64,000 nt of DNA, from NCBI GenBank assembly GCA_029263455.1, contig JAJCXM010000003.1, positions 124,001 to 188,000 of the forward strand, given 5' to 3'. Numbering within the stretch: position 1 is the first letter of the stretch; the number at the start of each line of letters is the position of its first letter. Shown piece after piece: positions 32,949 to 45,342 of the stretch. Source of the stretch: Holophagae bacterium (lineage in GTDB: Bacteria; Acidobacteriota; Holophagae; Acanthopleuribacterales; Acanthopleuribacteraceae). The translations under genes were made by a program, and so were the position numbers. The notes under the pieces were generated by a model. That model worked only from the letters and a program-made list of their open reading frames with translations, did not search any database and was not told where the DNA came from.

Positions 32949-33347
32949 ATGCTTTTTTTGCTCTTGGCGATTAGCCAAAGCTATACATCACCATTGCAAC
33001 CACTTGTTGATGCCTTTCGCCAACAAGACATCCGCTATTTCGAGCCCTTCTTGGACGAGGCACAGTCTGTACAACTAGACCTAAGACCTTTGTTGCCAGA
33101 TCAAGGCATCGTCTCTTCTGCTCAAATCGCCTTGTCGTTTAAGCGATTGGTTCATTTATTTAAGATAACCAATGCAAAACTGATTAACCAATCTGGCGAT
33201 ACCAACTATTCCAGATTGGAATGCGTCTTGCTCCTTCACTTAACTGATCGAAAGGGTACGTCATTCAAGGCGGCGTTCGACTTAAGGTTCCATTTAACGT
33301 CACATAGTTTGGGGCTAAGCCATTGGGCTTTGTCAAGAATCGAATAA
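32949..33347 (+). CDS. Small exported hypothetical protein, possible NTF2-like fold
   Basis: 132 residues. A short hydrophobic start (MLFLLLAISQSYTS) looks like a signal peptide. The remainder has the strand-helix order of small NTF2-like domains such as DUF4783: SPLQPLVDAFRQQDIRYFEPFL, then LDLRPLLPDQGIVSSAQIAL, then paired strands to the end. This is a pattern judgement, not a firm family call. Its end overlaps the start of the histidine kinase by 25 bases, so the two are probably co-translated. Confidence 0.65.
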   Translation: MLFLLLAISQSYTSPLQPLVDAFRQQDIRYFEPFLDEAQSVQLDLRPLLPDQGIVSSAQIALSFKRLVHLFKITNAKLINQSGDTNYSRLECVLLLHLTDRKGTSFKAAFDLRFHLTSHSLGLSHWALSRIE

Positions 33348-36300
33348 CCGTCGCCCTGTGGAGCACGCTGTTTGGCGTGTTTGTGGCTATTTCCTTGGAC
33401 AACCTGTGGATTATTGGCGCAATTTGTTGCCTAAATCTCGTCTTAGGTTTCTATGCCGGGCTAGGCCGCAAAGTGATGTGGTTGGTTCCAGGGATTTGGA
33501 TTCTTTTTTGGCTAGCTGTGCCTCACCGGCCACACACCAGTCAGGTTGATTTAGACATGGCCATGGCGGCCGTTGAAGAAGCGACAAAACAAGAGCGTCT
33601 ATTCAGCCACGAGGACATCGATTTCTTCACCTCCGAAGCACAGGGAAACTCGATAAAGTTTGCTAGTCCATCGCTGGAAACGGCCTTTGATAAATTGAGT
33701 TTAGAACCCTACATCGCAGTCACGTTTATGTCGTTGAGCTTTGAGCCGCTCATTTGGAAGGGTCGGCCCTATTCGTGGCGCCCGGAATATGATCAGTCGA
33801 ATCCTGAATGGTTAACGATCAATGGTTCAGCTGTTTTCCGTCGCGTCTTGCCAATCCCAAACGAGACGGTGACTCAAGCTTATTTGGTCGTCGAGGCGAC
33901 CCTAATCAGCGAGCAGTCAGGTCGACTCAAAGACACCTATCTGGGCAGTCTAAAGCCCGAAATAAGCGAAGGCCAGGTGCTGATCGACCCGACTCTACTA
34001 GCAGACGCACAGAACCCATTTTCTATGAAGATCGTCGCTCTCGATCAAGTTATGACACGCCACCAAATGGCTGGCTTCTTCTTGGCTCTGGCATTGATCA
34101 TGGGTCTATTCAAAGCAACTGCTCGTACGTCAAATAAACGCGCACTTTTGATGGTCGTCGCTTTATTCGTAACCCTCGCCCTATCACCAGGTTACGGACT
34201 ATCGCAATTAAGCATATTCAATACCTCGATCATAGGCTCCCCCATTTTTGCAAATTTGTTAGCGTCACCCTTTCACTATGCTCAAAGCATTGCCCTTACT
34301 TTTCTGTTATTGCGGCTGCTCGTGATGACTATTAAGCAACACAGGTGGGCTGTTGTTTTATTCGTTACGTTATTAATGTTCGCATTGTTGAGCCTAGACC
34401 CATTCTTAGTCTCTATCATGACAACCTCGCCAGTTCACCCCTTAGAATTGTTTGACTCGCCAGGAGCCGGTCTTACATTAGCTACTTTTTACTTCATGCA
34501 CGCCTTGATCGTGTGGTTGTTGAGAACGGCGTCATCAGGCTTGGTACTGCTAGAGCGAATGGTGCTCTCCGCCTTTCTATTAACAATAGCGATGCTTGCC
34601 TTTCCTGGACAATTATTTACGGCGACGGCATTCGCCTTATTGTGGTTAGTTGTAGGTATTCAAAGGATGCGTGCCATTCGTCAGCTTTCGTTAGCGGCTC
34701 TATCATGCGCGCTTTTTTATCCGGGCGTATTTCTCAGTGAACAAACAAGCGAATTACATCGCATTCAAACTGAGATGATGGATGATGTGACCTTGTTGTC
34801 AGAACGTAATCACGCGCGCATGTCCCTATTTAGGCGGTCCGTGCAAAAGATCGAGGACGATTATCCAACGTTTGTCGATTGTGCCGAGTGGCTCGCTGGT
34901 GAGTCGGGATTCACGGCATCTGGCGTCGCATATGGCATTCGCTTAGTTGGCGTTGACGGTCAAATACTCAGTGAAAACGAGTATCGGGTAAATCTGGATC
35001 GAATCCCGGCGTTATTAGGCCCGGAAAACCGTATCGAATTCTATCAAGAATCTAGCCGCTCCCCGCTTTGGATGTTCTATCGAACGCATATCCTGCTCAA
35101 TGAACGCGAAGTTGACATCATTGCTGTGTTGGGCAACGACTATCACACACTATCATTTGGACGAGACCATAAAGACCTAACAAGTCAACACGGACATCGT
35201 TATTTCGCATTCGATTTACAGGCCTATGACCGCGCGGGTTTTCCGCTTTCACGCTACAGTGTTTCGCCTTTGACGCCTGAAGACTTTAATGCCCTTGAAA
35301 GTCGACCATACGTTTGGACGCGCCAAGGCCGACACACATCTTTGTTGTTCAGCGACGAGCATTACCTATATCGAATCGTGCACACGAAAACGCCTCTAAA
35401 GATGGTCATTACGCGCTGGCTCTTGATTTCACTGGCAATCTGGACCGTGTTGCAACTATTGAGAATGAGTGCCTCACGCCGCCACCCATTGATCAAGACA
35501 TGGCAGCGATCATTCGCGTTCAAATTCGCTGTGACTGTTTTCATGGGAAGTATTATTCCCACGGCATCACTGGGTTGGCTGTTATTTAGCTCGATACAAA
35601 AAAACCAGGCGCGAGAACAGCGAGACGCGGTGCAAGCGCGCATGGGAGAGTTGGTTGGATTTCTTGAAACCCTGGTTGCGATGGAAGAACAATACGCAAA
35701 CCGCGATCAACGTCAACCACGAACAATCATGGAACTTGCTACCAGGTTAGATGAAGAGAATGTCTCTTTTTATCCCATGGGTTCGTTGTCTGCCACGAAC
35801 CGACCCGAACTCTTTCAACGCGGTGGTCTTGATGCCCGCCTCCCCTACTCGATGGCCCGTGACCTGATGCAAAGGAAATCAGGCATCGAGTTTCGTTCAA
35901 GCCAAATCGAATCCCAGCATGTAGATGAAGTACTGACTCTCTTACCCTTCCCAACGCGCAAACCGTTGCTTGTTGGATTAGCAGACTATCCAAACAGCCG
36001 CAAGCAGTCACTACGATGGCAAGAACAGGTTGAGTTGACGCTGGCAACCATATTCGTGCTTCTGTACATCATGGCCTACGTGGCTGTGGTTGTTGCAAGA
36101 CGCAGTTTGCGTCCGGTCAAGGCGATTACCCGAGGCGCAACCCGCCTATCGAGAGGGCTATCGCAGAAACCGATTGCCATTGATCGTCACGACGAATTAA
36201 GCCGCATGGTGGATGCTTTCAACCGCATGCAAGAAAAAATTAATTGGAGTCAACGAGAGGTGGCCCGTCAACTCGGGCTCTTTAATGTCACCATCCAATC

Positions 36301-37264
36301 GATGAATAGTGGCCTGTTGGGTTGCGATGCCCAAAAGAAAATTTTGTTGTCCAATGCGCGAAGTGCTGAGATTCTAGGCTTTGACCAACATGCCATACCA
36401 GAGTCGTTATCGAGTTTGGTCGAGCAATGTGAGGGCGCTGCTGCATTGATTGATCTCGCCGACAACGGGCAAGACGAAGAACGCCATATTGATCTTGGCA
36501 AACGTGAAATACTGGTGACCGTCCGCACCCGCGAAGCAAGTTTTAAAGGCGATGTCACAACCATTTTTGTGATTGACGATATTACGCACGTACTGGCCGC
36601 AAACCGACTTCATGCTTGGTCAGAAATGGCACGTCGCGTCGCACACGAGATCAAGAACCCCTTGACGCCTATCCAACTAGAAGTGGACCACATCATGCAT
36701 CTCCACCAAATAGATCATGCCGAATTTGCCAAAGAGCTAGGCGCAAGTGCAGATATTATTCGGCAGCAAGTAAGCCATCTACGCCAAATTGCGGTCGAAT
36801 TTAGCGATTACGCTCGTCCATTCATTTTAGAAAAACAACCGATGACGGTTGCAGCTTTGATCGATGAAATTATCGGCTCTTACCAACGCACGCTACCGGA
36901 ACTGCATTTCGAATTGGAGCTCAACCGCGATATTACGCTGAGCATGGACCGACGTCTTATGCGCCGTGCACTCCACAACCTGATCGAGAATGCGGTCCAA
37001 GCTATGGATCAACAAGGCACAATCACCATAACGGTCGCAAAGGTAGAGCAGGAAATTGTCATCGCAATTAAGGATGACGGTCCGGGCATAGCCTTGCAGG
37101 ATCAAACAAAAGTATTTGATGCCTATTTCTCGACCAAAGACCGAGGTACAGGGTTAGGATTAGCGATTGCCAAGCGTACAATCGAAGAACATGGTGGACT
37201 CATAGCTATGGATTCCGAATGTAAGCAAGGCGCCCGCGTCATCATCAAGCTCCCCTGTGATTAG
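33323..37264 (+). CDS. NtrY-like membrane sensor histidine kinase
   Basis: 1313 residues from a TTG at 33323, far longer than usual for a kinase. The N-terminal half has about ten membrane helices interrupted by an extracytoplasmic region (about 70-250), then a periplasmic sensor-like region (about 500-690). A helix near 738-760 precedes a second sensor segment (about 765-900). A helix, HAMP (about 905-960), PAS (about 975-1085), HisKA with phospho-acceptor His1108 in VAHEIKNPLTPIQLE, and an ATPase domain follow (HNLIENAVQAMD, DDGPGIALQ, GTGLGLAIAKRTIEEHGG). The HEIKNPLTPIQ block is typical of NtrY. No response regulator lies beside it, so its partner is elsewhere. Confidence 0.9.
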   Translation: MGFVKNRITVALWSTLFGVFVAISLDNLWIIGAICCLNLVLGFYAGLGRKVMWLVPGIWILFWLAVPHRPHTSQVDLDMAMAAVEEATKQERLFSHEDIDFFTSEAQGNSIKFASPSLETAFDKLSLEPYIAVTFMSLSFEPLIWKGRPYSWRPEYDQSNPEWLTINGSAVFRRVLPIPNETVTQAYLVVEATLISEQSGRLKDTYLGSLKPEISEGQVLIDPTLLADAQNPFSMKIVALDQVMTRHQMAGFFLALALIMGLFKATARTSNKRALLMVVALFVTLALSPGYGLSQLSIFNTSIIGSPIFANLLASPFHYAQSIALTFLLLRLLVMTIKQHRWAVVLFVTLLMFALLSLDPFLVSIMTTSPVHPLELFDSPGAGLTLATFYFMHALIVWLLRTASSGLVLLERMVLSAFLLTIAMLAFPGQLFTATAFALLWLVVGIQRMRAIRQLSLAALSCALFYPGVFLSEQTSELHRIQTEMMDDVTLLSERNHARMSLFRRSVQKIEDDYPTFVDCAEWLAGESGFTASGVAYGIRLVGVDGQILSENEYRVNLDRIPALLGPENRIEFYQESSRSPLWMFYRTHILLNEREVDIIAVLGNDYHTLSFGRDHKDLTSQHGHRYFAFDLQAYDRAGFPLSRYSVSPLTPEDFNALESRPYVWTRQGRHTSLLFSDEHYLYRIVHTKTPLKMVITRWLLISLAIWTVLQLLRMSASRRHPLIKTWQRSFAFKFAVTVFMGSIIPTASLGWLLFSSIQKNQAREQRDAVQARMGELVGFLETLVAMEEQYANRDQRQPRTIMELATRLDEENVSFYPMGSLSATNRPELFQRGGLDARLPYSMARDLMQRKSGIEFRSSQIESQHVDEVLTLLPFPTRKPLLVGLADYPNSRKQSLRWQEQVELTLATIFVLLYIMAYVAVVVARRSLRPVKAITRGATRLSRGLSQKPIAIDRHDELSRMVDAFNRMQEKINWSQREVARQLGLFNVTIQSMNSGLLGCDAQKKILLSNARSAEILGFDQHAIPESLSSLVEQCEGAAALIDLADNGQDEERHIDLGKREILVTVRTREASFKGDVTTIFVIDDITHVLAANRLHAWSEMARRVAHEIKNPLTPIQLEVDHIMHLHQIDHAEFAKELGASADIIRQQVSHLRQIAVEFSDYARPFILEKQPMTVAALIDEIIGSYQRTLPELHFELELNRDITLSMDRRLMRRALHNLIENAVQAMDQQGTITITVAKVEQEIVIAIKDDGPGIALQDQTKVFDAYFSTKDRGTGLGLAIAKRTIEEHGGLIAMDSECKQGARVIIKLPCD

Positions 37265-37324: not shown

Positions 37325-37795
37325 ATGGTCAAGAGCTATCAAGCCAAGATGGTCAGTCCAACTCAGGACAAATACCCTGATGCCGGAGACATTATGTCTC
37401 GACCTTTTGTCACGATTAACCAGGATACAGAAGTTTTCAAAGCCATCGACACGTTACTACGCAAGCAAATATCAGGTGCTTGCGTGGTAGACGCAGATGG
37501 GAAGTTGGTCGGATTCCTATCGGAGAAGGATTGTTTGCGTTTGGTAGCCGAGGTCGCTTATCACGATAACCGTACAGGTGGTCCCGTAACCAACTACATG
37601 TCGAAAAAGGTCTTAACAGTCAATATAGACGTCGGACTAATACAAATATCAGAACTGTTCACATCCAATCCCTTCAGGAAAATACCCGTCATGGACGGCG
37701 ACAAACTCGTCGGCGTTGTTAGGCGTCGAGATGTCCTGCGTGCCATCCAAAGTCACGAGAAGAAAAAGAATCACAGTTTCTCAAAGGCTTTTTAG
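37325..37795 (+). CDS. Two-CBS-domain protein
   Basis: 156 residues. Two CBS motifs (about 22-80 and 88-145) are marked by DIMSRPFVTINQDTEVFKAI with SGACVVDADGKLVGFLSEKD, and YMSKKVLTVNIDVGLIQISE with RKIPVMDGDKLVGVVRRRD. Paired CBS domains bind adenine nucleotides and usually act as energy or ligand sensors. No catalytic domain is attached. ATG 37325 has GAGAGG upstream. It ends five bases before the convergent rhodanese gene. Confidence 0.9.
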   Translation: MVKSYQAKMVSPTQDKYPDAGDIMSRPFVTINQDTEVFKAIDTLLRKQISGACVVDADGKLVGFLSEKDCLRLVAEVAYHDNRTGGPVTNYMSKKVLTVNIDVGLIQISELFTSNPFRKIPVMDGDKLVGVVRRRDVLRAIQSHEKKKNHSFSKAF

Positions 37796-38161: not shown

Positions 38162-38800
38162 TCAATCTCCCACCTTTCGCTCATCATGCTTGACGGCCGG
38201 CAATTTCGCCAGCCAGAGGGTCAATTCATGCCTTAAACGGCTCATAGGCAATCCCATGACGTTTGTTTGGCTGCCCTTCAGTTCGCGGACAATATGAGGC
38301 GCATCTTGATAACCATAGGCCGCCGCTTTGTCTAACGGATCAACTTCCACAAACAATCGCTTGATTTCGTCCGCATCCATCTGCTTCAACACCACCTGGG
38401 TTGTTTCCACGAATTGATGAGAATCGCCTGAAGCAGGGTGAATCAAACAAACACCCGTCATCACCCGATGAGTTTTACCCCCAAGTTCAACTAAGAATCG
38501 TTGCGCTTCGACCAAATCAACAGGCTTGCCATACACGCATTTGTCCATGACAACCAACGTATCCGCAGCCAGAACACAGAGCTTCTCGTCACTTGTGTTT
38601 CGATCACTCAATCGACAGGCAACATCACTTGCCTTCAGATGAGCATTCGCCATCACGGAATCCTCAATGCGATCGTGTGTCCCGTTTTCTTCTTCAACTT
38701 GACTGACCACAACCTCAAAATGATATCCGTTTTCGCGCATTAAACGCTGCCTTCTGGGGGACTGTGACGCTAATATGAATCGCCATGAGGGAAAAGACAT
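38162..38800 (-). CDS. maf: Maf-family nucleotide pyrophosphatase
   Basis: 212 residues from ATG 38800, which overlaps the pdxJ stop (TGATG). The N-terminal ILASQSPRRQRLM signature, the VLAADTLVVMDKCVYGKP block with the catalytic Asp, and YGYQDAPHIVRELKGSQTNVMGLP (quoted in part: GSQTNVMGLP) identify the family. These enzymes hydrolyse non-canonical or modified nucleoside triphosphates (dTTP/UTP or m7GTP types) and can slow septation. Confidence 0.93.
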   Translation of the reverse strand: MSFPSWRFILASQSPRRQRLMRENGYHFEVVVSQVEEENGTHDRIEDSVMANAHLKASDVACRLSDRNTSDEKLCVLAADTLVVMDKCVYGKPVDLVEAQRFLVELGGKTHRVMTGVCLIHPASGDSHQFVETTQVVLKQMDADEIKRLFVEVDPLDKAAAYGYQDAPHIVRELKGSQTNVMGLPMSRLRHELTLWLAKLPAVKHDERKVGD

Positions 38801-39558
38801 CAAGTTGACTCATTGGCCTTAAACGGAGGAAACAAATCTATATAGTCAGCCACCGCCCTAGAAATGCCCGTCATGATGGAACGTGATACCAACTGATGAC
38901 CAACATGAATTCCACGTACCCCATCCAAACGCGACAATGTTGGGATCATGTCGAGACTGACCGCATTGACCAAATGAGTTTCAAGTCCGTATTTACTACT
39001 GAGTCGAACCGCATCCCTAATTTCTCGGAACATCTTTTCTGAATAACCGGATTGAGCGGCCATGGCGTAGTCACGCATATTGATCATGAGTCCATGAACT
39101 TCTAATTTAGCGGCCGTACGAATGTGATCAAAAACAGGATCGACTAGCAAAAACACGCGGGTCGCGTTTTGGTCGATGCTGCGAATCAGTGGCAGGAGTT
39201 GGCCAGCCAGCAGCGAAACGTCAAGCCCCGTTTCCGTTGCCATTTCGTCCCTTCGTTCGGCCGCCAATATCAGGTTTCGTGGTCTCAACTCGTTAACGAG
39301 ATGACTAATATCCTGATTGGGCGAAAGCTGCAAATAGAAATTCGACTTCACCATTCGCGCTAGCAACTGTACGTCGTAGTCTTGAATGTGCCGCCGATCT
39401 AATCGAAGTTGAGCTTTAATGCCACGTGCTCCCGCTTGCTCGGCTTCGAGGGCAAAATGAACCGGGTCAGGCACGCGTGCTTTTCTTGTTTCCCGCAGTA
39501 GAGCAACTTGGTCGACAGATACAATGAGATCGGGTTGCTGTAGATCAATTTCAGCCAT
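38800..39558 (-). CDS. pdxJ: PdxJ-family protein lacking the catalytic residues
   Basis: 252 residues, aligning end to end with pyridoxine 5'-phosphate synthase. Conserved parts are LLRETRKARVPDPVHFA, LRLDRRHIQDYDV, AAERRDEMATETGLDV and GIHVGHQLVSRSIMTG. The active site is altered: the residues equal to E. coli His45, Glu72 and His193, given as catalytic in that enzyme, are Gln50, Gln77 and Asn198 here. His12 is Gln17 and Glu153 is Met158. The phosphate-side Arg52, His57 and Gly220-His221 remain. It is therefore probably not a PNP synthase in the usual sense, yet it keeps the common glmM-pdxJ gene order and is coupled to glmM (8-base overlap). The symbol denotes family only. Confidence 0.8.
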   Translation of the reverse strand: MAEIDLQQPDLIVSVDQVALLRETRKARVPDPVHFALEAEQAGARGIKAQLRLDRRHIQDYDVQLLARMVKSNFYLQLSPNQDISHLVNELRPRNLILAAERRDEMATETGLDVSLLAGQLLPLIRSIDQNATRVFLLVDPVFDHIRTAAKLEVHGLMINMRDYAMAAQSGYSEKMFREIRDAVRLSSKYGLETHLVNAVSLDMIPTLSRLDGVRGIHVGHQLVSRSIMTGISRAVADYIDLFPPFKANEST

Positions 39559-40864
39559 TCAGTAACTCCTCGGCTTTAGCTGCAAAAGTATCAACAAGTG
39601 GGGCTACTTTCTCAAGACTCTTGGCTTCTATAAACAGTCTCAATAATGGCTCCGTACCTGAATAACGCAAAACTAGGCGCCCTTGATCTTCAAGCTCCCG
39701 GTCAATGGTCCCTTTGATGTCGTTTAGAGGGCCAATACCCTCAATGGGTTCCCTCTTACTGATGCGTATGTTTCGTTCCAAACAAGGATACCGCGGAACC
39801 TGCTGTGATGCTTCCTGTATCAACTTAGCGTCTGAAGTTAGATGTCGCAGTAAACGAAGAGCCGGTAAGAATCCGTCGCCAGCATTCAATAAATCCATTT
39901 GAATATAATGGCCGCTGGGTTCACCGCCTAGGATGTCACCAGATTTTCGTAGTCCCTCTAATAAGTATTGGTCTCCAACTGGGGTTCTTATCAATTCAGC
40001 CCCCTTTTTCGCCAAGGCATCATGCAGCCCTTGTCCGGCCAAGATCGTGCCGTAAACACGCTTGACGTCATGTCCCTCTCGCCGAAGACATTCTGCCAGA
40101 GCGAAAAGCACCACATCGCCAGGCACGGTATTTCCCTGGTGGTCTATCACCACCAGCCGATCACCATCGCCATCAAACGCAAATCCTATGTGCGCATTTA
40201 GTGATTTGACACGCGCAGCCAGCCGTTGTGGATGTAAAGCACCAACATGTTGATTGATTCGTTTGCCATCAATTTCATCGGCGACAAAACTGGCATTGAG
40301 TCCCAATTGCTGACATAAGGCTGGCATACGACCTGTTGCAGCTCCATGGGCCAGATCAAAGACCACCTTTATTGAACTAAGCTTGTCGTTACCAAAATGA
40401 CCCATCACCATATCGCTATAGTGACTGGGTTTGCAGGCCACAAGCGAGGCGGCACCGGCCTGCAAATCCGCTGTGGTTGTGTAGAAAGCAGACGACCATC
40501 GTCGTGCCCTTTCACGCTCTATCTTAAAACCATCAGCCCCAAAGAACTTCAAACCATTGTCTGGCGCTGGATTATGTGACGCCGTGACCATGACACCTAA
40601 AGCCGCATTCCTACGGACAGTTTCACATGCCACCATAGGCGTGGTCACAATACCCAAATCGTACAAAGGCCGGTCAACCATAGACGTGACTAAGCTTTTG
40701 ATCATTGAGGGTCCTGACTCCCGCGTATCACGGCCAAAAACAATAGCTGCGCCTGGCGGTAAATCGCTATCAATGACTTTGGCAATCCGCCGTAGTCCGT
40801 CATCGTCCAGAGGTGCTTGTCCCGAACGACCTCGTATGCCGTCGGTACCAAATAATTCGCTCAC
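39551..40864 (-). CDS. glmM: Phosphoglucosamine mutase
   Basis: 437 residues from GTG 40864 (SELFGTDGIRG follows), overlapping the cdaR stop (GTGA). It converts glucosamine-6-phosphate to the 1-phosphate for UDP-GlcNAc, hence for peptidoglycan and LPS. The catalytic serine lies in VTASHNPAPDNGLKFFG, the metal loop is FAFDGDGDRLVVID, the sugar-binding loop GEPSGHYI, and the phosphate site RYSGTEPLLRLFIEA. CdaA/CdaR next door form the known regulatory link between GlmM and cyclic di-AMP. Confidence 0.97.
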   Translation of the reverse strand: MSELFGTDGIRGRSGQAPLDDDGLRRIAKVIDSDLPPGAAIVFGRDTRESGPSMIKSLVTSMVDRPLYDLGIVTTPMVACETVRRNAALGVMVTASHNPAPDNGLKFFGADGFKIERERARRWSSAFYTTTADLQAGAASLVACKPSHYSDMVMGHFGNDKLSSIKVVFDLAHGAATGRMPALCQQLGLNASFVADEIDGKRINQHVGALHPQRLAARVKSLNAHIGFAFDGDGDRLVVIDHQGNTVPGDVVLFALAECLRREGHDVKRVYGTILAGQGLHDALAKKGAELIRTPVGDQYLLEGLRKSGDILGGEPSGHYIQMDLLNAGDGFLPALRLLRHLTSDAKLIQEASQQVPRYPCLERNIRISKREPIEGIGPLNDIKGTIDRELEDQGRLVLRYSGTEPLLRLFIEAKSLEKVAPLVDTFAAKAEELLNG

Positions 40865-41850
40865 TCGATCACAACCTCTGCCGGTTCCCATTCGAGCTGA
40901 ATGGCCGCAATGAGCGCACTTACCTGGTCTCGCTCGCTTTCATCCTCTGGCAAAAGGAGCTCAGTTTGCAAAACTAATGAGTCACCCTTCTTAACCTCGC
41001 TGCCTACCACGATAAAGGGTTTCAGCCAGGCCTGGTTGATCAGGCTAAGACGAGACACAGGCCCGGTTATTTTCGCTTTGACCTTACCCGGTTTCACTTT
41101 GAACTTACCATCCCCTGCTTTGATTTCTACCTGATAGCGCTCTGGAATCGTCCGGGTTTCAACGATCTCACGAATGGTCGCCGTATAAACCAACTCATTC
41201 AGATTCAAGACAGAGGCGTCGTGGGGGATTTGCTTATCGAAATCGAATCGGACACGACCGCTGATATCGGCCTTGCTACCGTCGATGTCAATCGGTTCGG
41301 CTACCAAGATGCTCAATTCTGCAACCTGCGACTCCGGTCCCTCAATAATTGCATCACGAGGCGTCACCTCTAGAGCCACCAATTCGTAGTCTAAGTCTGG
41401 ATGGCCGCGGGTGCTGAGCACGACCCGTACATTCTTTTTCAACTTTCGTTCAAGTGTCAGTCGCACGATCCGAGGTTGGATTTCCTCTACCGAAATTGAT
41501 TCAAACTGACCTCTAACGGTGACATTATTTAAGCTCAAGGGAATATTGTATGTTCCCGAAACGTATTCGCTAAGATCGAGTCTCACATCAATGTCGTTGG
41601 CCGATATCTCTCGCATTTCCGATTCTCGCCCAGATAGCGATACCGAAATTTGATAAATTTCCGACGATAACTTCATATTCTCCGGAACGCCCTGTTGAAC
41701 AAGCGCTACATTCGAGAATATGCGTACGACGCGATTGTCCTCACCTTCTAAACGTCCCGACAAATTGACCCACATCAGCAACGCCATGAACAACGAAGCC
41801 AATCGTAATGTGTTGCGCGGTATTTTCCGGCCTGCTCGGTCTTTATCCAT
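40861..41850 (-). CDS. cdaR: CdaR-type YbbR-domain protein
   Basis: 329 residues. One N-terminal membrane helix (about 14-32, LRLASLFMALLMWVNLSG) leads to several YbbR repeats, each about 80 residues of beta structure; VEEIQPRIVRLTLERKLKKNV and ITGPVSRLSLI are typical junctions. CdaR binds and modulates the cyclase CdaA at the membrane. It starts two bases after cdaA ends and is coupled to glmM downstream. Confidence 0.92.
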   Translation of the reverse strand: MDKDRAGRKIPRNTLRLASLFMALLMWVNLSGRLEGEDNRVVRIFSNVALVQQGVPENMKLSSEIYQISVSLSGRESEMREISANDIDVRLDLSEYVSGTYNIPLSLNNVTVRGQFESISVEEIQPRIVRLTLERKLKKNVRVVLSTRGHPDLDYELVALEVTPRDAIIEGPESQVAELSILVAEPIDIDGSKADISGRVRFDFDKQIPHDASVLNLNELVYTATIREIVETRTIPERYQVEIKAGDGKFKVKPGKVKAKITGPVSRLSLINQAWLKPFIVVGSEVKKGDSLVLQTELLLPEDESERDQVSALIAAIQLEWEPAEVVIE

Positions 41851-41852
41851 GT

Positions 41853-42818
41853 TTAAGGGCCCGAACCCGATGCCGTCTTTTGTGGTTCCGGTTCTTCTGA
41901 AACTGTCTCTATCTCTTCGCTAGATGTCAATTCCTTGGACGCGATTAGTTTTCTCCGTTCGCGACGAAAAAGAGTTTTTCGCCACAATGTAGTGCGAGAT
42001 TTATCGTCCTCTTCCACGTGCTGAGTGAGCTCATGAAACAGATTCTTAAGTTGGGCAATGGAATAGTCTTCCGGGACAAATGCTTCGCCGTTTTTGACGA
42101 ATGTGATGCGGCCACTTTCTTCCGATACAACCACTACCACGCAGTCGGTTTCCTCTGAAATACCAACAGCAGCGCGGTGTCGCGTGCCGAAATGACGAGG
42201 GAGATCAACACGATTACTCAGAGGTAACACGGAAGAAGCGCTGGCAATTCGATCCTGAGAAATGATGACTGCGCCATCGTGGAGGTTACTTTTTGAATAA
42301 AAAATATTGAGCAACAGCTCTGAACTAGGCACGGAATCAAGCACCGTGCCGATTTCAATATAATTCTTTAATCCTTCTGTGCGTTCAAACACAATCAAAG
42401 CCCCGATATTACGTTCGGCCAGATAACGAACCGCAAAGAAAATCTGATCAAGGTCCGGGTCACTTGAGGATTGTGTTAGTCCAACAAACGGACCTCTGCC
42501 TAACGAAGCCAATACCTTCCTAATCTCATTCTCGAATAACACGATGATGGCAATCGGGATAATGGTAAATAAGGACGAAACTACTTTACTTAGTACCGTC
42601 ATACGCAAAAAGTCGGCGGCAACTTGAATGACGAACAAAGCAACAATTCCCATGGCCATTTGCATGGCACGCGTGCCGTGAATGAGCTTTAATAGGTTGT
42701 AAATCAACAACCACATAATCAGGATATCGAGGATATCCCAGAATTGAATCGATCTGAGTTGTAGACTCAACTGCAAAAAATCAAATGATTCGTTGAAAAA
42801 AGCTTTTATGGCATCCAT
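41853..42818 (-). CDS. cdaA: Diadenylate cyclase CdaA
   Basis: 321 residues from ATG 42818; GTG 42839 in frame is an alternative and neither has a clear ribosome site. Three membrane helices lie at about 28-95. The DAC domain follows (about 105-255), with the catalytic LHDGAVII and GTRHRAAVGISEETD motifs. An acidic tail of about 45 residues ends the chain (SSEEIETVSEEPEPQ). It makes cyclic di-AMP from two ATP, controlling potassium and cell-wall homeostasis. It lies in the usual order with cdaR and glmM. Confidence 0.95.
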   Translation of the reverse strand: MDAIKAFFNESFDFLQLSLQLRSIQFWDILDILIMWLLIYNLLKLIHGTRAMQMAMGIVALFVIQVAADFLRMTVLSKVVSSLFTIIPIAIIVLFENEIRKVLASLGRGPFVGLTQSSSDPDLDQIFFAVRYLAERNIGALIVFERTEGLKNYIEIGTVLDSVPSSELLLNIFYSKSNLHDGAVIISQDRIASASSVLPLSNRVDLPRHFGTRHRAAVGISEETDCVVVVVSEESGRITFVKNGEAFVPEDYSIAQLKNLFHELTQHVEEDDKSRTTLWRKTLFRRERRKLIASKELTSSEEIETVSEEPEPQKTASGSGP

Positions 42819-42929
42819 GGTGTTTGTGTAAATTGGCACCGCGACTCTGTTTGTCCCATCTTAGCACCCCAGCGAAAGATACTGTCTCTAAAACAACGTC
42901 AGAACCGCAATATTGATAAAAAGATACTA

Positions 42930-43769
42930 TTAGTTTTGTCTCTGCTCCAGAGAAGACTGTATTTGAAGGCCTCGGCACATCATTTCCACATGGTGGACAC
43001 GATGAACAGCCACTGACTTGGAACACAGCAACAAGCTTGCCATGACCGAATAAGGGTCTCTTTCCGACACGGGAACATCCAACAGTTTCCCTAACCATGA
43101 TTTTCTACTGAGTCCCATCACCAGTGGCCTACCGAGCTTAATAGCCAGCGTTTCGCATGATCTCAAAAGCGTTAAATTTTGATCCAACGTTTTTCCAAAG
43201 CCGATGCCCGGATCATAGAGGATTCTTTTAGCATTCACGCCGGCAAAACATAGGCGTTCTTTAACTTTTGCAAGAGAGTCGACCACCGCTTCAACAACGC
43301 CGTTTGAATAATCTGTCATTGCCTGCATATGCTTCGGCAATCCTGGCGTATGCATGGCGATGTAGCCAACGTTCGTTGAAACCAGCCAGGGCACAAACTC
43401 AGCCACATTGAGCGACGCCGTGACGTGATTCACGATGGACGCGCCTGCTGCGGTCGCTGCCTGCGCCACCGCCAGCCGACGTGTATCAATCGAGATGGGG
43501 ATGTCGATTTGTGCGGACAATGCTTGTACAACAGGGACGACGCGCGCGATTTCCACATCTTCATCGACCGCACTTGAGCCAGGTCGGGTACTCTCTCCCC
43601 CAACATCGATCATATCTGCGCCTTGCTGCGCAAGTTGAAGCCCGAGCCGAATGGCCGCATCATGATTCTCACTGCCATCAGAAAAACTGTCAGGGGAAAC
43701 ATTCAAGATTCCCATAACAAGGGGCTTTTGACCTAATTCCAGCCGATGATTTCCACAAGTCCACCACAT
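42930..43769 (-). CDS. folP: Dihydropteroate synthase
   Basis: 279 residues. It joins p-aminobenzoate to dihydropterin pyrophosphate in folate synthesis. The signatures are VMGILNVSPDSFSDG, IDVGGESTRPGS and, towards the C-terminus, DPGIGFGKTLDQNL and GLSRKSWLG. ATG 43769 is only a few bases from the divergent decarboxylase promoter region. It heads the folP-cdaA-cdaR-glmM-pdxJ-maf string; folC lies 5 kb away. Confidence 0.96.
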   Translation of the reverse strand: MWWTCGNHRLELGQKPLVMGILNVSPDSFSDGSENHDAAIRLGLQLAQQGADMIDVGGESTRPGSSAVDEDVEIARVVPVVQALSAQIDIPISIDTRRLAVAQAATAAGASIVNHVTASLNVAEFVPWLVSTNVGYIAMHTPGLPKHMQAMTDYSNGVVEAVVDSLAKVKERLCFAGVNAKRILYDPGIGFGKTLDQNLTLLRSCETLAIKLGRPLVMGLSRKSWLGKLLDVPVSERDPYSVMASLLLCSKSVAVHRVHHVEMMCRGLQIQSSLEQRQN

Positions 43770-43884: not shown

Positions 43885-45342
43885 TTGGACAATTACCATG
43901 TTGCAGAGAAATTCGACAAGATCGGTTCATCGCTACTCGATCTGTTAAAAGAATACTACGGGGATCCGGGTTCTAAACCCGTGATTCAATACAAAAGCAA
44001 GTCCGATATTATTGCGGACTATCACCGCGAAACAGCACCTGACGATGGACGTCCACTTGAGGATGTCATTGAATCCTTCAAAAAAGATATTCTGCCCTAC
44101 AGTGTGCATACTTGGCACCCATACTTTTTGAATCAGATGTTCGCCGGTTCTTCCTTTCCAGCCATTATTGGAGATCTTCTAGCATCCATGATGAATCCCA
44201 CTTTGGCCACTTGGGAGATGTCACCTATTGCGACGTTAATTGAACAGAACACCGCGCAGTGGATGGCCCAAATCATTGGCATGCCAAAAGGAAGTAGTGG
44301 CATTTTCTTACCTGGTGGCTCACTTTCCAATCTGCTGGCATTAACTATCGCTCGCAATCGAGTGCTAGATCCCAATATCAGGGACTGTGGCTTAAGCGAC
44401 GAAAGGCGAGGCGCCATTATCTGCTCGGAAGCCAGCCATTACTCCGTGGCGGGTGCCGCGAATCTATTGGGCATTGGCCTAAATCAAGTCAAGAAAGTGA
44501 AAGTCAACAGACGGCAGGAAATGGACGTTGATCATCTGCAGGAAACGATACAGCAATGTAGAGATGAGAGTCTAAAGCCATTTGTTGTGGTCGCCACAAC
44601 AGGCATTACCGTTACTGGCGGGTTCGACCCACTTGGCGAAATTGCCGATCTTCTAAAAGACGAGGACATCCACTTGCATGTTGATGCAGCCTTTGGTGGC
44701 GGTATGGCGTTGACAGATCAACGTGAACATTTATTTGGTGGCATCCATCGTGCCAACTCATTAACCTGGGACGCTCACAAGTGGATGCACACACCTTTGA
44801 CCTGTTCGGTACTGCTGGTGCCCGATCCTGAGATTCTTGAAAAGACCTTTTCACAGAAAGCAGATTATCTGTTTCATCCACAACAGGAAAAACTCTTAGA
44901 TGATTTGGGTAAATCTACCCTGCTCTGTGGTAAGCGTTTTGACGCTTTGAAAATCTGGCTGCTGTGGAACACATATGGGACATCGCATTTCAGGGAAGTC
45001 GCCAACGAGCGTGTCGACTTAATGCGACAAATCAACCAAATAATCAAAGCGGACCCTGATTTTGTATCCGACTATGAAATGGTTTCACCCATCTTGTGTT
45101 TTACCTATCAGAATAGCCTGATCCAACAGCTAAAAGAACCAGAACGAACGCTATACAGTAATCGCATGCACCGATACGTTCGCGAATCGATTAAACATTC
45201 AGGCCGTGCCTTATTTAACATTACAAAACTTAACGGAAAAGATCAGTTCCGCATGGTGCTGATCAATCCACTCACCGATTTGAGTCACGTGCGCGTCTTG
45301 CTAGAAGACATCCGTAGCCAATGTCAGGCTTACTCAGAGTAA
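43885..45342 (+). CDS. Group II PLP-dependent decarboxylase (glutamate/aspartate/cysteine-sulfinate type)
   Basis: 485 residues from a TTG with GGAG about eight bases upstream. It is a type I-fold PLP enzyme. The internal-aldimine lysine is in LTWDAHKWMHTP (about residue 294), the PLP-phosphate loop is GGSLSNLLAL, and HVDAAFGGG contains the PLP-pairing Asp. HTWHPYFLNQMFAGSSFPAII near residue 78 is the substrate-side motif of this group (quoted in part: HPYFLNQMFAG). Substrate cannot be set from sequence alone; glutamate, aspartate and cysteine sulfinate are the candidates. It is a single gene, divergent from folP and convergent with ftsH. Confidence 0.9.
   Translation: MDNYHVAEKFDKIGSSLLDLLKEYYGDPGSKPVIQYKSKSDIIADYHRETAPDDGRPLEDVIESFKKDILPYSVHTWHPYFLNQMFAGSSFPAIIGDLLASMMNPTLATWEMSPIATLIEQNTAQWMAQIIGMPKGSSGIFLPGGSLSNLLALTIARNRVLDPNIRDCGLSDERRGAIICSEASHYSVAGAANLLGIGLNQVKKVKVNRRQEMDVDHLQETIQQCRDESLKPFVVVATTGITVTGGFDPLGEIADLLKDEDIHLHVDAAFGGGMALTDQREHLFGGIHRANSLTWDAHKWMHTPLTCSVLLVPDPEILEKTFSQKADYLFHPQQEKLLDDLGKSTLLCGKRFDALKIWLLWNTYGTSHFREVANERVDLMRQINQIIKADPDFVSDYEMVSPILCFTYQNSLIQQLKEPERTLYSNRMHRYVRESIKHSGRALFNITKLNGKDQFRMVLINPLTDLSHVRVLLEDIRSQCQAYSE

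Follow-up and report, generated by a model that had tools for sequence, protein, structure and literature searches.

Within the window, by which we mean the whole 64,000-nucleotide stretch of DNA analysed here, a pdxJ-like gene lies at positions 38800–39558 on the minus strand (the strand was set in this study, as the first-pass annotation gave none) and encodes a protein of 252 amino acids. The gene belongs to a run of minus-strand genes headed by folP (dihydropteroate synthase; 42930–43769), which also heads the operon order in families f8 and f39 (see below). Next come cdaA (41853–42839), encoding a membrane diadenylate cyclase whose translation shows the DGA and RHR motifs, cdaR (40861–41850), named as a YbbR-type regulator of CdaA from its position and sequence, and glmM (phosphoglucosamine mutase; 39551–40891), whose last 8 bases overlap the start of the pdxJ-like gene. 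A maf-like gene (38162–38803) follows directly downstream, overlaps the pdxJ-like stop, and is present downstream in all genomes of the family Acanthopleuribacteraceae (f1), to which the window genome belongs. In five relatives, the overlap between the glmM and pdxJ frames is ATGA, and together with the 8 bases in the window, this suggests that co-translation, or translational coupling, has been kept. Divergent from folP, a group II decarboxylase-like gene (43885–45342, plus strand), probably PLP-dependent (HKW motif), is kept in L033, a genome of the same genus. On the other side, an NtrY-like sensor kinase of 1313 amino acids (33323–37264, plus strand), followed by a CBS-domain protein (37325–37795), is found beside the operon in L033 as well.

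The encoded protein matches PF03740 over nearly the full profile (179.2 bits versus a cut-off of 24.5; profile positions 2–233 of 234, protein residues 11–242), whereas it reaches the curated threshold of none of the NCBIfam PdxJ equivalog models (best score: 170.9 versus 190; TIGR00559: 149.2 versus 192.75). Residues 12–239 (approximately 228 residues) align without a single gap to the solved PdxJ structures of Escherichia coli (1m5w, 1ho1) and Pseudomonas aeruginosa (5dlc), confirming the full-length alignment to PNP synthase that had been described at first pass. An AlphaFold (AF2) model, built from seven sequences and of modest confidence (mean pLDDT 73), recovered the TIM-barrel fold of PdxJ: the top 16 PDB matches were all PdxJ crystal structures (TM 0.72–0.82), with other TIM barrels far behind. 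Because there are no gaps relative to solved PdxJ proteins and the fold matches (TM ~0.80), the alignment register is secure. A shifted register that would restore the catalytic His and Glu residues is rejected on these grounds, and a register error is very unlikely.

Based on this alignment, the residues equivalent to E. coli His12, His45, Glu72, Glu153, and His193 are Gln17, Gln50, Gln77, Met158, and Asn198 in the window protein, and Asn9 is replaced by serine (Ser14). The phosphate-side residues Arg20, Arg47, His52, Gly215, and His216 are all present, as previously proposed for all of them but Arg20, and Arg50 and Arg51 are also kept. In E. coli PdxJ, we take His45, Glu72, and His193 to be catalytic, Glu153 to be stabilising, and the others to be ligands of the substrate phosphate. 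When compared with 59 canonical PdxJ sequences (E. coli and acidobacterial proteins), eight positions that are 100% conserved in the canonical set (Glu72, Glu153, His193, Asn9, Thr43, Asn70, Thr156, and Gly192) proved to be changed in all seven members of the family (the window genome and six relatives). Given this complete conservation, the family changes at Glu72, Glu153, His193, Asn9, Thr43, and Asn70 are not ordinary variation.

The replacements follow a family-wide pattern: Glu72 is invariably Gln (7/7), whereas His12 is replaced by Gln or Pro, Glu153 by Met, Cys, Ala, or Val, and His193 by Asn and once by Gly, all three being lost in every member. His45 is kept in six of the seven proteins and H45Q occurs only in the window's genome, so that the window protein is down one more catalytic residue than its six relatives. 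The codon at position 50 is CAA, a single base away from a His codon, and the sequence comes from a draft assembly. The claim that the whole catalytic set has been replaced is therefore correct for the window protein but does not extend to the family. On the phosphate side, no family member departs from Arg47, Arg51, or His216, and the exceptions at other positions (R20N, H52D, G215D) are confined to one genome (G004). In addition, 17 positions are invariant in Acanthopleuribacteraceae yet rare in canonical PdxJ, including Gln77, Ser79, His86, Asn89, Arg162, Asp163, and His195. Elsewhere, in several acidobacterial families (L120–L133), we observed divergent canonical PdxJ proteins in which His12 is replaced by Lys (once by Ala) and Asp11 by Asn, with His45, Glu72, Glu153, and His193 kept.

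The genomes of the family also differ in gene content from the rest of their class. Each of the seven encodes PdxS, PdxT, and a single PdxJ, and none encodes PdxA; a search for a second PdxJ found none in the window's genome nor in the other six. Among 54 other class members, PdxJ is present in all, PdxA in 52 (the two genomes without it are 84% and 89% complete), and PdxS in none. In the window's genome, an intact pdxS lies next to an intact pdxT, and inspection by eye shows the lysine and Cys-His-Glu motifs expected of their products. The vitamin B6 route has been replaced in Acanthopleuribacteraceae by PdxS/PdxT, and PdxA of the DXP route has been lost; at the level of gene content, this matches the earlier suggestion that PLP is made by PdxS/PdxT if no other pdxJ is present. 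The window protein still shares with canonical PdxJ the gap-free alignment, the TIM barrel, the phosphate-side residues, and the acidobacterial operon slot, and its PF03740 membership and retained substrate-phosphate residues are what would be expected if other residues had taken over the catalysis of PNP synthesis. It nevertheless lacks five catalytic or stabilising residues as well as Asn9, scores below the equivalog range, and occurs in a family where PdxST is present and PdxA, the substrate supplier, is missing in 7/7 genomes. Continued PNP synthase activity is accordingly a very improbable reading, and the protein, as far as its residues and genomic context can tell, is very probably not a PNP synthase.

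The pdxJ-like gene is under strong purifying selection and is not decaying. For L037/L038, the most closely related pair in which dS could be measured, dN/dS was 0.057 over the open frame and 0.035 when trimmed to the homologous part, and a second family pair gave 0.152; both pairs fall within the range of canonical active pdxJ pairs (0.03–0.19), all values being approximate because dS is high and near saturation. The neighbouring genes in L037/L038 all showed higher ratios than the 0.057 of the pdxJ-like gene (cdaA: 0.080, maf: 0.122, glmM: 0.139, cdaR: 0.163). Selection had been proposed at first pass to keep this gene, and values of 0.035–0.152, as in active pdxJ, bear this out. A relic on its way out might be expected where the pathway has already been replaced, and other PdxS-containing acidobacteria have no pdxJ at all. 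However, the gene is intact in all seven genomes (five genera), and a dN/dS as low as that of active pdxJ, and lower than that of glmM and cdaR in the compared pair, rules out a decaying relic, a reading to which we attach next to no probability. The pseudo-PdxJ has very probably been kept for another function.

That function could be a new chemistry, to which the new invariant residues and the His45 retained in six of seven members may point. A neofunctionalised enzyme, its pocket rebuilt for another reaction on a phosphorylated substrate around His45 (in most members) and other old or new residues, for example Asp16, Gln77, Ser79, His195, Arg162, and Asp163, is the main rival to a non-catalytic partner, and the 17 family-invariant positions and the low dN/dS agree with it. 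On the other hand, the window protein has neither His45 nor the other acid-base residues of PdxJ, and the replacements mostly remove charge (Glu to Gln, His to Asn, Glu to Ala, Val, Met, or Cys), as would be typical of a protein that no longer performs acid-base catalysis. We consider a new enzyme unlikely and the pseudo-PdxJ somewhat more probably non-catalytic than newly catalytic.

To what extent this PdxJ form is shared was assessed in several genome sets. Conservation in close relatives is clear, with a divergent, degraded PdxJ in 7/7 Acanthopleuribacteraceae genomes from five genera. A first scan of named genomes with the window protein as single query gave no match; with the family alignment, the scan returned six loci, from Acanthopleuribacter pedis, Sulfidibacter corallicola, and four Acidobacteria/Holophagae metagenome assemblies. 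When 396 genomes sampled from the phylum were searched, a set from which the other five family members are absent, query-like scores (432 and 424 bits) were confined to the genus of the window, the next best being 202. Within this sample, the gap (424 versus 202 bits) rules out a wide spread of this PdxJ form through the phylum.

A second case of degradation was found when 35 further genomes of the phylum were picked by score and the 29 with PdxJ matches were re-examined (three matches were fragments): f8 was the only family among the 29 that is degraded at catalytic positions. Its PdxJ (G080 [L135] and G065 [L136]) carries D11T, H12T/C, H45N, E72K, and H193R, and the phosphate side is lost too (R20V/A, R47K, H52Y/Q, H216R), unlike in f1. 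As in f1, the degraded protein occupies the folP-cdaA-cdaR-glmM-pdxJ slot and PdxS is present in both genomes, although G080 retains a PdxA-family gene. The remaining PdxS-containing genomes of the score-chosen set have no PdxJ or, in f39 (G363, G121, and G258), combine PdxS, PdxA, and canonical PdxJ, a dual-pathway state that is a plausible intermediate in the pathway swap.

Phylogenetic analysis gave different signals for the two families. The CdaA tree grouped f8 with f39, and f1 with f3 (100/99), and rejected an f1+f8 clade (p-AU 0.0005), whereas the PdxJ tree joined f1 and f8 weakly (84/89) and with a long-branch warning; the GlmM tree did not discriminate (p-AU 0.32 for a common f1+f8 origin). 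Because the CdaA tree rejects f1+f8, we discarded a single origin and consider two independent PdxJ inactivations likely, assuming that pdxJ never moved without its neighbour cdaA. Given that the phosphate side is lost in f8 as well, a function common to both pseudo-PdxJ forms, if any, may be protein-protein, and ligand binding need not be their common denominator.

The operon itself is older than the degraded proteins that it now contains. The cdaA-cdaR-glmM-pdxJ order is found not only in f1 and f8, but also beside canonical PdxJ in the class-mates f3 and in f39, and is ancestral. This rules out a special c-di-AMP neighbourhood that arose with the pseudoenzyme, and the neighbourhood alone is no evidence for a c-di-AMP role. 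The first-pass argument from the c-di-AMP and amino-sugar neighbours is thus weakened, even though these genes are present and their order is kept. In Bacillus subtilis, CdaA is directly inhibited by GlmM (PMC8573169). The GlmM-CdaA complex involves the same neighbour genes, with GlmM inhibiting the cyclase besides its enzymatic role, but the described complex has no PdxJ-like protein and the work was done on Firmicutes (PMC8573169, PMC6368335). A tie of the pseudo-PdxJ to GlmM/CdaA is a tentative proposal, to which we give somewhat less than even odds. In its purest form it would be structural, the presumably octameric barrel serving as a GlmM/CdaA partner without ligand; the overlapping glmM and pdxJ frames are consistent with this, as is the f8 protein, which was probably degraded independently and lost its phosphate residues, yet remains in the operon. 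The retention of Arg47, Arg51, and His216 throughout f1 is unlike a surface-only role, and we regard a scaffold without ligand as improbable.

Starting from what can be observed directly (lost catalytic residues, a swapped pathway, purifying selection, and a retained operon position), we think it most likely that the protein binds a ligand or serves as a scaffold in partnership with GlmM-CdaA, because the phosphate side is retained, the pocket is neutralised, and the gene is coupled to glmM. Under this proposal, PdxS/PdxT would have taken over PLP synthesis in the family, PdxA would have gone, and PdxJ would then have lost its PNP synthase activity, the orthologue being retained for a second function as a non-catalytic TIM-barrel protein. 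A small phosphorylated compound may still be bound at the old phosphate subsites (Arg20, Arg47, His52, and Gly215-His216) in a pocket whose charge has been neutralised by E72Q, H193N, and the change of Glu153 to a non-acid, and the protein, co-translated with GlmM and CdaA/CdaR, would act as a regulator or scaffold. We assign a probability of roughly 0.55 to this reading as a whole, i.e., a former PNP synthase that likely binds a phosphate ligand and may regulate or scaffold GlmM/CdaA. As to the ligand binding without catalysis suggested at first pass, loss of the PNP synthase role and purifying selection stand, whereas binding is argued from the phosphate-side residues and competes with a new activity. 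Retention in an ancestral operon slot can also be inertia.

A comparable case is known from plants. PDX1.2 belongs to another protein family and coexists with active PDX1 paralogues, whereas the pseudo-PdxJ of Acanthopleuribacteraceae lacks any active paralogue and the genomes no longer encode PdxA. What the two have in common is that a vitamin B6 synthase homologue is kept without catalysis, PDX1.2 being a pseudoenzyme of the PdxS/PDX1 family that is reported to be a regulator (PMC6829848). In the open-access literature, which leaves most subscription journals outside, we found no paper that describes PdxJ as a pseudoenzyme, and none that treats Glu72 and His193 of PdxJ. One survey of the pathways to PLP took the presence of pdxJ as the signature of the DXP-dependent route and reported ten genomes with both routes, and the term ‘active site’ is absent from its main text (PMC9997740). 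A comparative genomics paper on Acanthopleuribacteraceae contains no vitamin B6 terms (PMC8841776).

Acanthopleuribacteraceae and f8 are therefore counterexamples to the use of pdxJ as a DXP-route signature, as a PdxJ match in these genomes would falsely predict a second pathway. More speculatively, and with only a modest chance of being correct, an abandoned PdxJ may have been recruited repeatedly (at least twice, with different substitutions) as a non-catalytic part of the CdaA-CdaR-GlmM c-di-AMP/cell-wall module upon the swap to PdxST, a module in which active PdxJ may already moonlight. Loss of the chemistry while enzyme-like conservation is maintained, which seems to have happened two times in one and the same operon, makes it directly testable whether PdxJ has a hidden second function.
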